Part shown: piece after piece, positions 1 to 3,955 of the stretch | How positions within the stretch are numbered: the stretch's first letter is position 1 | How the letters are laid out: the number at the start of each line of letters is the position of its first letter | Assembly (NCBI GenBank): GCA_014730185.1 | Contig: WJIP01000185.1 | Span: 1-35,623 of the forward strand | Direction: 5' to 3' | Length of the DNA stretch: 35,623 bases | Origin: Caldithrix sp. | Lineage (GTDB): Bacteria > Calditrichota > Calditrichia > Calditrichales > Calditrichaceae | Translations under genes and position numbers: made by a program | The notes under the pieces: model-generated | The model's input: only the letters and a program-made list of their open reading frames with translations | What the model was told of the DNA's origin: nothing | Database searches by the model: none

Positions 1-1251
1 CGATACGGTTATATGCCCTACCCGGCAATCGCGGAAAAGCAGTTTATTCTCTCCGCTGGCTGTACTCAGTACATGGATATCCCGAAATAGTTTATTGTTA
101 TTGGTGGTGTAAAACAAAAGACGATTGCGACGGTCGAAGGCTGTGGAAGCAATGCCCACCATACTGGGGGAGGGCAGAGAACCTATTTTCTGGTAGGTTT
201 TACTTTTTAGATCAAATCGTACCAGTTTGGTAAGTTGATGGGGTCGGTGAAAGCCGAAAATAAGCGCATTCCGGTCCGGTTCATGATAAGCCTTGGTCAC
301 CCATCCCAAAGGTTGATCCGTAAGCGGGTACATTTCCGTCAATGGTTCGCTCTTAAGGATGTTGATATTGGATCCCTGAAAGGCCTTCTCATTGGCTATG
401 AAGTTGGTCCACGCTGTCTGCAAGCTTGTTTTGAATACCCTCTTGAACTTTTGTTCAAAATGCAGATATTCGTATGAATTGCGTACCCGAAACCACTCGA
501 CCAGCTTATCCGAGCCATAATGATGAGCAAGATAGGCGCTGAAACGGGCGCCATATAAGTAGAACAGGGTTTGCAGTAAAAAGGAATTATGACTGGTTTT
601 GGCTTCCAGATACCGGGGAGTCGGGAAATCACGGTTTTCGAAAACCATAGAACGGTAATACATCTCATCAAAATTACCCAGCACACGCCCAAAACCGCCG
701 CTCAACCAAGTCTCCATAAAAATAGCAATGGATTCCTGATGCCAGCGCGGTGAATAGCGCTGGGTATTGGTCAGATGACTATACAAAACGGTAAGCGGCT
801 GCGCTTTTTCCGGCGGCACTTTGGAAAATAGTGATCGGTTGAATGTTTCCACCCGGCCGGCCTGATCGTTTACGATGACATGCACCAGTTCATGGCTGAT
901 GATCCACTGGATACGACCGTTAAAGGGCATGGTTTCGTAACTGAGTTGTAAAGGAGCGATTTCCAAACGGATAAAATTTTGTGGAAGGGTAGTGGTTCCT
1001 GCTTTACCGTAATCGCTGAAATCATAAGTGTTGATGATTATTTTTTCACTTGGGGTGTAGTCGAAGAGTTGGCTTAGTGGCTTGAACGCTTTTTCTGCCG
1101 CATCCAGGATTTGGGGCACTAATACGGCGTGCTCGGCACGATAAACCACTTTAAAGTGCCTGCTTTCGCTTTCAAACCAGTCCCGGGCCCGGGCAGGATG
1201 CAAGAGCAGGATTAATAAGACAACAATGGGTAAAAGGGTCCGCAAGCGCAT
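1..1251 (-). CDS. Secreted HExxH zinc metallopeptidase with propeller-like C-terminus (3' end outside window)
   Basis: An uninterrupted minus-strand reading frame of 417 codons starts at ATG 1251 and runs off the left edge, so the C-terminus is missing. The N-terminus (MRLRTLLPIVVLLILLLHPA) is a signal peptide, so the protein is exported. The zinc-binding motif HELVH lies at about residues 127-131, and a downstream WHQESIAIF segment at about 172-180 supplies the likely third ligand glutamate. This pattern fits gluzincins of the peptidase MA/M1-like group. The last ~110 visible residues contain short strand-turn stretches (for example 'RNALIFGF', 'RNRLLFYTTNN') that resemble TolB/WD-type beta-propeller blades; this is inference. 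A terminator-like hairpin separates it from the repeat-protein gene upstream, so it probably has its own promoter. Substrate cannot be told. Confidence 0.8.
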   Translation of the reverse strand, partial: MRLRTLLPIVVLLILLLHPARARDWFESESRHFKVVYRAEHAVLVPQILDAAEKAFKPLSQLFDYTPSEKIIINTYDFSDYGKAGTTTLPQNFIRLEIAPLQLSYETMPFNGRIQWIISHELVHVIVNDQAGRVETFNRSLFSKVPPEKAQPLTVLYSHLTNTQRYSPRWHQESIAIFMETWLSGGFGRVLGNFDEMYYRSMVFENRDFPTPRYLEAKTSHNSFLLQTLFYLYGARFSAYLAHHYGSDKLVEWFRVRNSYEYLHFEQKFKRVFKTSLQTAWTNFIANEKAFQGSNINILKSEPLTEMYPLTDQPLGWVTKAYHEPDRNALIFGFHRPHQLTKLVRFDLKSKTYQKIGSLPSPSMVGIASTAFDRRNRLLFYTTNNNKLFRDIHVLSTASGENKLLFRDCRVGHITVS

Positions 1252-1270: not shown

Positions 1271-1310
1271 TTTTAAAAGAAAGCCCTCATTCTGTTGAAC
1301 AAGGGCTTTG
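1271..1310 (-). terminator. Rho-independent terminator of the 18-residue-repeat gene
   Basis: An 8-bp perfect stem (AAAGCCCT at 1280-1287 with AGGGCTTT at 1302-1309) has a 14-base loop. On the minus strand it is followed by a run of T (complement of 1275-1278). It sits about 45 bases past the stop of the gene ending at 1356 and just upstream of the peptidase start at 1251. Confidence 0.6.
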
Positions 1311-1355: not shown

Positions 1356-1904
1356 CTATTCAGCACTTATTCCGAACTGACCGATAATTGCCGCATTGCG
1401 ACCGTAAGCCACGGCATAGCGGCTGCCGAGTTCTTCAATCTGTGCGGCGTTGCGACCATAGGCTACCGCATAACGGCTGCCGAGTTCTTCAATCTGTGCG
1501 GCATTGCGACCGTAAGCTACAGCGTAGCGACTACCCAGCTCTTCGATCTGTGCGGCGTTGCGGCCGTAAGCCACGGCATAGCGACTACCCAGCTCTTCAA
1601 TCTGTGCGGCATTGTTGGCGAGGCCGAGGGCATAGCGCGAGCCTAATGCTTCTAATACAGCTGCATTGTTGTCGTATCCCAGGGCATAACGGCTGCCAAG
1701 CATGTTAATCTGTCTGCCATTGGTGTAAACGGCTGACGGACGGATACCCAGTGTGTGTGTTGCATCTTCCACAGACGCCATCTGATCAGTGGATGATGCG
1801 ATCACCCGAAATCGATCCGCCTTATCCACATTGGCAGGCGCCTGAGCGAAAGCACCGTTCATCAAGAGCGCTGCTGCAAAAAGAAGAAGCAAGAAATGTT
1901 TCAT
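1356..1904 (-). CDS. Small secreted protein made of 18-residue tandem repeats
   Basis: This 182-residue protein has a signal peptide (about residues 1-20, cut after AFA). After a short unique segment it carries about six tandem 18-residue units. The consensus is QIEELGSRYAVAYGRNAA. The first two units are divergent (ALGYDNN, ALGLANN) and the last four are identical in protein. The LGSRYA core occurs in every unit. The tail is GQFGISAE with no membrane anchor or sorting domain. A strong ribosome site (GGGAGG, six bases before the ATG) supports the start. I do not recognise a family. The repeat could be a solenoid coil or a surface/matrix polymer; 18 residues also equals five alpha-helical turns, but the Gly-Ser step argues against a continuous helix. 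Confidence 0.8.
   Translation of the reverse strand: MKHFLLLLFAAALLMNGAFAQAPANVDKADRFRVIASSTDQMASVEDATHTLGIRPSAVYTNGRQINMLGSRYALGYDNNAAVLEALGSRYALGLANNAAQIEELGSRYAVAYGRNAAQIEELGSRYAVAYGRNAAQIEELGSRYAVAYGRNAAQIEELGSRYAVAYGRNAAIIGQFGISAE
1393..1734 (-). repeat. 54-bp coding tandem repeats
   Basis: Units begin at 1393, 1447, 1501, 1555, 1609, 1663 and 1717 (the last partial and degenerate), an exact 54-bp period. Adjacent copies among the four best differ at about six or more positions, and these differences are synonymous. Confidence 0.9.
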
Positions 1905-2335: not shown

Positions 2336-3955
2336 ATGAAAAGCACTATAAACTTGCTCATAATAATTTTCTGCATAAGCACCCCGCTCCCCATATTCGG
2401 GCAATGGAATGATGATTACGATGATATTTCGGCAAAGGAAATTGAGAAGCGGGCCTATGAAAAATATATTCAGGATAAAAATAAAAGCGATTTCCGATTT
2501 TATAATGATAAAAGTATCCATTCAAAAGAAATTATAGATGGCAATGTGATCGTCCTGGAAGGCGATTTAAATATTAGTGGTCAGATTAATGGTGATGTGC
2601 TGGTCGTCCGTGGCGATGTCAATATCCACGCAGATGCGGTGGTTAATGGCGATGTGATCAGTATTAACGGAAAAATTTACCAGGATCGTCAGAGTCTGGT
2701 AAATGGAAATCAAATTGAGACACGGGCCCGCAACCTCTATGCTAAAAAAGAATTGAGTTATTACGATGAAGACCGGGAAAGTAAATGGGGGAAGGTTAAT
2801 AGAAGATATTACGAATCTTACAGCACTTTGAATTTAAGCAGGCTTGATGAATCCATACTTTTCAGGTATAATCGGGTTCAGGGTTTATTTCTTGGCTTAA
2901 CTTTTCCTAAAAATATCGGTGGTAAACACAATATTTTTTCCCTGCATGGCTTTGGGGGATATGGTTTTCAGGATAATAAGTGGCGTTATCTTATCGGTAT
3001 CGATCGATGGTTGTTTAACCAAAAGAAATATCGCTTTGAAATCGGTGCCAAAGCCTATGACCTGACCGATACTAAAGATAACTGGAAAATTAACCCGCTG
3101 GAGAACAGCTTGGCTGCTCTGTTGATCCATGAGGATTTTCAGGATTATTATCGTCGTAATGGATATGAAATCCATGCCACTCAAAACATTTCCATTTTTT
3201 TCAAAGGAACGATTGCTTACCGCAATGATGATTATCATAGTGTGCAAAAAAATACTGACTGGGCTATTTTCGGCGGCAAGAAAAAGTTTGCTGAAAATCC
3301 GGCTATACCGGAAGGGAATATGCGCAGTATTTATGGTGAACTCTATTGGGATAACCGGGATAATAAAGAATTACCCAAAAGAGGCTGGTATGGCAAATTG
3401 ACCGGCGAAACTTCGAATAGCGGCCTGGATAGTGATTATTCCTTTAATAAGTATGTTTTTGAATTGCGGGGATACCAGAAACTGGGACACTATGAGAGGT
3501 TGGATTTCAGAATCAAAGCCGGTTCAGCCGAAGGGGATCTACCTTTACAAAAGTCTTACGAATTGGGTGGTATAAGTACACTTAGAGGGTATGATTATAA
3601 AGAGTTCAGCTATGTAGTTGATGAGGATGGACAGATTAAAACACGGGATCGCATGTTGCTGGCCAATATCGAGTATAATATAAATCCCCGGATTTTGAAT
3701 ACAAGTTTCTTGTTTTTTGATGATGTTCGGTATATGTTGTTTTTTGATGCAGGCAGTGCCTGGAGCCGGACCAATGTGAGCGCTAAAGATAAGTGGAATG
3801 CCGGTTTTTCTCACTTAACCTGGTCAGACATTAAAAGCGATTTTGGTGTTGCACTTGTATCCTGGTCAGGACGAGCTCGATTGAGTATTGCCAAAAGACT
3901 TGATACAGGAAAAGATCCAATCCGGGTAACTTTTAGGATAAGTAAACCTTTTTAG
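2336..3955 (+). CDS. Outer-membrane beta-barrel protein (Omp85/surface-antigen-like) with bactofilin-like solenoid
   Basis: This 539-residue protein has a signal peptide (about 1-22). Residues ~66-115 are a short beta-solenoid of the polymer-forming (bactofilin) type with repeats such as 'INGDVLVVRGDVNI' and 'VNGDVISINGKI'. The remainder is rich in alternating aromatic strands and carries the 'GGISTLRGY' signature at about 409-417, typical of the barrel of Omp85/ShlB/surface-antigen proteins. It ends in a C-terminal phenylalanine (ISKPF), as outer-membrane barrels often do. GGAGG five bases before the ATG supports the start. It is first in a probable four-frame operon to 6559. No POTRA domains are evident, so a BamA-type assembly role is unlikely. 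A structural or tethering role of the solenoid is inference. Confidence 0.75.
   Translation: MKSTINLLIIIFCISTPLPIFGQWNDDYDDISAKEIEKRAYEKYIQDKNKSDFRFYNDKSIHSKEIIDGNVIVLEGDLNISGQINGDVLVVRGDVNIHADAVVNGDVISINGKIYQDRQSLVNGNQIETRARNLYAKKELSYYDEDRESKWGKVNRRYYESYSTLNLSRLDESILFRYNRVQGLFLGLTFPKNIGGKHNIFSLHGFGGYGFQDNKWRYLIGIDRWLFNQKKYRFEIGAKAYDLTDTKDNWKINPLENSLAALLIHEDFQDYYRRNGYEIHATQNISIFFKGTIAYRNDDYHSVQKNTDWAIFGGKKKFAENPAIPEGNMRSIYGELYWDNRDNKELPKRGWYGKLTGETSNSGLDSDYSFNKYVFELRGYQKLGHYERLDFRIKAGSAEGDLPLQKSYELGGISTLRGYDYKEFSYVVDEDGQIKTRDRMLLANIEYNINPRILNTSFLFFDDVRYMLFFDAGSAWSRTNVSAKDKWNAGFSHLTWSDIKSDFGVALVSWSGRARLSIAKRLDTGKDPIRVTFRISKPF

Follow-up and report, generated by a model that had tools for sequence, protein, structure and literature searches.

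Cell-surface signalling and regulated intramembrane proteolysis, as represented by FecA/FecR and PrsW/RsiW, are the kind of system with which the locus reported here was compared. Like the systems described in PMC5411451 and PMC10202637, most relatives of the locus co-encode an ECF sigma factor, a membrane anti-sigma factor, an outer-membrane protein and a PrsW-like protease. In contrast to those systems, the outer-membrane protein is a peptidase-propeller-barrel protein and not a TonB-dependent receptor, the extracytoplasmic part is a tandem-repeat array, and no PrsW or sigma gene was seen adjoining the locus studied. A TonB-dependent receptor with a signalling domain, the hallmark used for FecA/FecR, was not detected in this outer-membrane protein by the Pfam scan.

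Three other described groups resemble parts of the locus. The central propeller of the outer-membrane protein is closest to TolB in the PDB (1crz, E 2e-9, Foldseek, with an orthologue model as query), but the protein adds a peptidase-like domain and a beta barrel and is 11-17% identical in the TolB matches. The arrays of several relatives exceed Pfam cut-offs for STI1-HOP_DP (PF17830, matched by 9-residue units) and MgtE_N (PF03448, matched by 12-residue units), whereas the protein studied here matches neither, and low-complexity repeats inflate such scores. Finally, a 1050-residue TPR-CHAT protein is encoded beside three of the loci, recalling TPR-CHAT proteases such as Csx29 of Craspase. Unlike Csx29 (PMC10028731), these proteins appear by eye to have a signal peptide and a C-terminal membrane segment, and no CRISPR effector was noticed among the neighbours read. 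Sigma/anti-sigma/PrsW signalling is already known; neither the libraries nor the open-access papers searched contained this outer-membrane partner and its tandem-repeat arm.

The window, the whole stretch of 35,623 nucleotides that was analysed, comes from a Caldithrix sp. genome (contig WJIP01000185.1; genome G000 below). The features considered are the following.

1..1251, minus strand: first 417 residues of the partner gene, with a metallopeptidase-like domain (HELVH ... WHQES) and the start of a propeller (from sequence, profiles and the orthologue model)
1274..1309, minus strand: terminator-like hairpin with a T run after it, in the spacer that separates the repeat gene from the partner (fold energy -17.7 kcal/mol)
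1356..1904, minus strand: gene of the repeat protein, 182 residues (the main finding; open reading frame translation)
1377..1700, minus strand: array of six 18-residue units in the LGSRYA register (repeat finding and unit alignment)
1398..1613, minus strand: four units identical in protein, NAAQIEELGSRYAVAYGR, whose DNA differences are all synonymous (unit comparison)
1845..1904, minus strand: predicted Sec signal peptide MKHFLLLLFAAALLMNGAFA, without a lipobox cysteine (from reading the sequence)

The repeat gene is present in a single copy in its genome, and Tandem Repeats Finder located in it the sole array of the window (1389-1614, period 54, 85% matches). The first-pass annotation had reported four tandem copies identical in protein, with neighbouring 54-bp units differing at about six or more synonymous sites. 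Our recount agrees: the four NAAQIEELGSRYAVAYGR copies differ pairwise at 6, 10, 6, 11, 8 and 6 of 54 bases, every difference falls at codon position 3, and there is no non-synonymous change. The register matters for this count, as only three full identical 18-mers are obtained in the LGSRYA register and four in the register starting at NAAQ. Two more units, LGSRYALGYDNNAAVLEA and LGSRYALGLANNAAQIEE, vary in protein, and the end of the last unit departs from the others. LGSRYA, said to occur in every unit, was found in all six.

At least 14 changes, a minimum count, separate the four units, and all are synonymous. The probability of this outcome is about 3e-9 without selection, 0.02 at a dN/dS of 0.1 and 0.14 at a dN/dS of 0.05, which indicates strong constraint, yet no unique degree of it. 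The dN/dS check that had been proposed gave the same picture: among the three identical units of the LGSRYA register, pN was 0 and pS 0.53-0.84. Codon identity between units at lag one was 0.53 against 0.37 expected from codon usage (z=3.2), so that synonymous sites are far apart and not saturated. The units also back three mutually incompatible site groupings, as is expected from exchange between units or from recurrent change.

Searches with the repeat protein gave no match above cut-off in Pfam, NCBIfam or PADLOC, curli and other known curated repeat families included, and nothing below E 0.17 in a PDB sequence search. The earlier statement that no known family comes to mind is therefore correct for these curated libraries; a wide family is nevertheless recognisable by gene position, as described below. 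Structure prediction had been suggested as a way to look for a solenoid or fibre. The AF2 single-sequence run produced a long helix (residues 57-176), with pLDDT of about 95 in the best model only. The five models scored 78, 66, 58, 37 and 34 and the pTM was 0.39; as only one of the five is confident, the long helix is not evidence for a rod. No similar solved structure was found with Foldseek.

Directly downstream of the repeat gene, on the same strand and 104 bases apart, lies the partner gene; the same arrangement is seen in G032, a genome from a different family of the class. The full-length partner, a predicted outer-membrane peptidase, has about 990 residues and is composed of a metallopeptidase-like domain, a TolB-like propeller and a C-terminal beta barrel. 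Its remainder in G000 is at the end of contig C156, and we infer the join from an overlap with the window that is 95% identical. That the protein identity between window 1-324 and the end of G000:C156 is 95% and not 100% suggests a strain mixture or an assembly fault.

The G032 orthologue (989 residues) is 59% identical to the product of window 1-1251 over the shared part. Its AF2 model, built with 53 sequences, was confident (pTM 0.86). From its secondary structure and the fold search we read three parts: residues from about 30 to 303 form an alpha/beta domain, those from about 325 to 595 a propeller, and those from about 640 to 988 the C-terminal beta barrel. Pfam gave only weak matches to peptidase-MA, PD40 and Omp85 in a relative. 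H124, E125, H128 and E177, that is HExxH and a downstream Glu, are near-invariant in the 53 partner sequences, and HELVH and WHQES in the window correspond to the zinc metallopeptidase motif of the MA clan; peptidase activity is a prediction. A hairpin similar to the one that separates the two genes occupies this position in G032; overall, 37 of 70 loci have one, where shuffled sequences would give 10.4. Its place after the repeat gene suggests, as a prediction, that more repeat protein than partner would be made.

A scan of 85,000 species genomes with the partner alignment recovered at least 414 relatives. By record title, the best 80 of these fall into about a dozen phyla: Calditrichaeota, KSB1, Ignavibacteria, Balneolaceae, Zixiibacteriota, Eisenbacteria, Latescibacterota, Aminicenantes, Acidobacteria, Neomarinimicrobiota, Krumholzibacteriia, Cloacimonadota, Delongbacteria, Armatimonadetes and other groups are represented. 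A tandem-repeat gene, called at a periodicity z above 5, is located directly upstream of the partner in 66 of 71 loci, compared with 5 of 395 other ORFs in those loci. Repeat periods are mostly 9, 18, 12 and 11 residues, and the unit sequence varies between loci. Many of the related repeat proteins open with a membrane segment followed by GTIGGvxKAxKYRxxQM. Positive charges precede the membrane segment in all 38 anchored proteins tested, from which the array is predicted to lie outside the cytoplasm. Despite its recurrence in many phyla with a fixed gene order, the pair is named in no curated library searched and no description of it was found in the open-access literature; it is apparently undescribed.

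The window locus resembles this pair in two respects: its repeat gene precedes the partner on the same strand, and it encodes short units in tandem. It lacks the N-terminal anchor motif, in place of which there is a signal peptide, and no adjacent ECF sigma, anti-sigma or PrsW-like genes were seen in the stretch read. The sequence NVDKADRFR resembles the family motif, but not significantly, and the N-terminus has no significant match to the profile of the anchored family (rank 13 of 501 with shuffles). Given this N-terminus, the window protein was filed as a variant of the pair and not as a typical member, and its link to the family comes from gene position, the array and a bridge locus.

This bridge, L141 (genome G229, another phylum), carries in one operon a TPR-CHAT protein, an anchored repeat protein and the partner. 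The repeat protein consists of the anchor, the motif VRGVEKAKKYQAEQM and units DSRYAVAWSNLLADDKFRELMA (DSRYAVAW units). Its pairwise comparison with the window array gave E 3e-6 and exceeded 999 of 1000 unit-permuted controls (rank second of 1001), and the TPR-CHAT protein is 39% identical to that of G000. A first scan of genome contigs with the repeat protein as query had given no match. When 40 genomes of the class were compared, a similar array turned up in one other species: G032 has nine near-identical copies of the 17-residue LGSRYALVYANSAQLEE in divergent codons. A close partner homologue is present in only 7 of the 40. G000 and G032, although from different families, share LGSRYA..Y..N.AQ.EE. 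A separate arrangement was observed at L143:4851-6973 (G117), where three tandem copies of short anchored GTxGGVEKA proteins lie upstream of the partner.

In most relatives the pair has signalling genes as neighbours. The gene that follows the partner is PrsW-like (PF13367) in 65 of 74 loci, and an ECF sigma gene is upstream in 42 of 48; a STAS gene is near in 34 of 42 and an ATPase of the anti-sigma type in 31 of 40. With a strict, non-iterated query an anti-sigma domain was found near in 45 of 53 loci, and in 17 the array is fused to the anti-sigma factor. An earlier tally (53 of 55, 39 fused) was dropped as inflated because the iterated profile also matched array proteins. In most relatives the array would thus be the portion of an anti-sigma system that lies outside the cytoplasm. 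In the stretch read (the window and L043/L139), the window locus has no gene for a sigma factor, an anti-sigma factor or PrsW beside it. The pair in G032 has beside it genes for an ECF sigma factor and an anti-sigma-like TPR membrane protein; a PrsW-like gene was not found at that locus.

On these data, the chances appear about even that the window protein is a soluble exported form of a widespread periplasmic tandem-repeat family that works with the outer-membrane partner in envelope signalling. The missing anchor and signalling genes at the window locus, the missing PrsW-like gene in G032 and the small share of class genomes with a close partner homologue count against this reading. The array would then be the periplasmic partner of the peptidase-propeller-barrel protein and would contact it physically. 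In most relatives it would be held outside the inner membrane on its N-terminal anchor, or by fusion to the anti-sigma factor, and could act as the extracytoplasmic arm of an ECF sigma/anti-sigma pathway. This pathway would probably end in intramembrane cleavage by the neighbouring PrsW-like protease. A single sequence for all units might reflect that each makes the same contact, with either a groove of the partner or the neighbouring unit. We infer that the soluble version in the window fulfils this role with no sigma factor encoded next to it. If the pair is an envelope-signalling module, a testable function is provided for a family of large outer-membrane peptidase-propeller-barrel proteins, and also for repeat proteins that profile libraries match weakly or by composition.

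Identical units behind a signal peptide, next to a metallopeptidase-like protein and near a caspase-like TPR-CHAT protein, could also be explained by a multi-copy peptide precursor, which the neighbouring peptidase would cut into identical signalling or effector peptides. We consider this very unlikely, given that the arrays of relatives are fused to membrane anti-sigma factors, that their units vary within one array and that neither a dibasic site nor any other conserved cleavage motif is conspicuous; the sole bacteriocin-like profile match scored 20.9 against a cut-off of 40 bits.

Related arrays allowed codon evolution to be followed outside the window. In many relatives, codon identity under a kept peptide unit is at chance level (for example L062, 0.41 both observed and expected). 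Together with the pN of 0 and the array of the second species, G032, this supports the earlier proposal that the peptide is under purifying selection. In several pairs of close relatives the arrays are collinear and match, or almost match, in length, indicating slow turnover by duplication there. Array codons were compared with flanking codons, amino acids being matched, in seven close-relative pairs. Synonymous codons of the array diverge faster than those of the partner gene or of the N-terminal part of the same gene in four pairs, the direction is opposite in two and there is no difference in one.

The first-pass annotation had concluded from the DNA divergence that the repeats are not recent copies. 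This was not established. With faster synonymous change in the arrays of four of the seven pairs, incompatible groupings and unsaturated codons in the window, synonymous distance is no clean clock in such arrays, and the conclusion does not follow. The same three observations are compatible with recent duplications whose codons were later diversified, by selection against recombining DNA repeats or by unit exchange, so that the identity of the units would mainly reflect common origin. Adjacent units that differ more than by chance in a few arrays (L071, z=-3.4; L078, z=-2.1) point the same way; codon avoidance between neighbouring units as a general rule was rejected, being limited to those few. 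Such an origin is nonetheless decidedly unlikely as the main explanation: that none of at least 14 changes altered an amino acid requires purifying selection whatever the origin, and LGSRYA..Y..N.AQ.EE is kept in two different families.

In one case a residue has changed in all units of an array. The Balneolaceae loci L066:294-1766 and L081:7328-8800 encode collinear arrays of 490 residues and 32 units each. In L066, 31 of the 32 units have P or V at position 9; the corresponding 31 units of L081 have A or S there. The differences arose in place by point changes, and the third base is unchanged in 22 of 32. Against both L081 and L102, the change in L066 runs throughout the array, mostly by a single base and with the third base kept. 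A complete unit switch was found only in the L066/L081/L102 set, other pairs being partial. The propeller of the partner did not change faster on the L066 branch (3 vs 9 sites). There was no enrichment indicating coevolution of the partner with the switch, and this candidate was dropped. The lack of a burst argues against docking in the propeller and slightly favours units packing on their neighbours over docking on the partner.

Packing of this kind is central to a further possibility, that the array is a self-assembling or solenoid scaffold built by units stacking on one another or on further molecules, so that all must share a surface, the partner merely exporting, anchoring or trimming it at the outer membrane. 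The all-helical prediction for the window protein agrees with it, as do the matches of 12-residue units to MgtE_N, a helical superhelix, and of 9-residue units to STI1-HOP_DP, the probable expression of the repeat gene above the partner given the hairpin, and the L066 switch, which came with no faster change in the propeller of the partner. An array fused to an anti-sigma factor, as in 17 loci, would be odd for a bulk structural fibre, and Foldseek shows no solved structure like the window model; we regard a scaffold as unlikely, although it is the strongest of the competing explanations.

The broader form of the signalling reading is put forward tentatively and as less likely than not: about a dozen phyla would share a new kind of envelope-signalling module, with a periplasmic tandem array that evolves as one unit. 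An array read by a single partner, or by itself, would require all its units to switch together. Whatever their role, these arrays provide a natural test of the ways in which repeats keep their protein sequence while their DNA diverges. Many show chance-level codon divergence, some have accelerated synonymous change, and an all-unit residue switch is seen in one case.

The TPR-CHAT genes adjoining the pair are located as follows.

L043:115-3270, plus strand: TPR-CHAT gene of G000
L042:3603-6749, minus strand: TPR-CHAT gene of G032
L141:6948-10103, minus strand: TPR-CHAT gene of G229

Matches of an iterated CHAT profile in other loci were discarded, as the CHAT motif was absent from them. The TPR-CHAT gene and the partner gene lie tail to tail in both G000 and G032. 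On the other side of the repeat gene, the divergent neighbour in the window (2336-3955, plus strand) encodes a barrel of the Omp85 type in which a short stretch close to the N-terminus is bactofilin-like.
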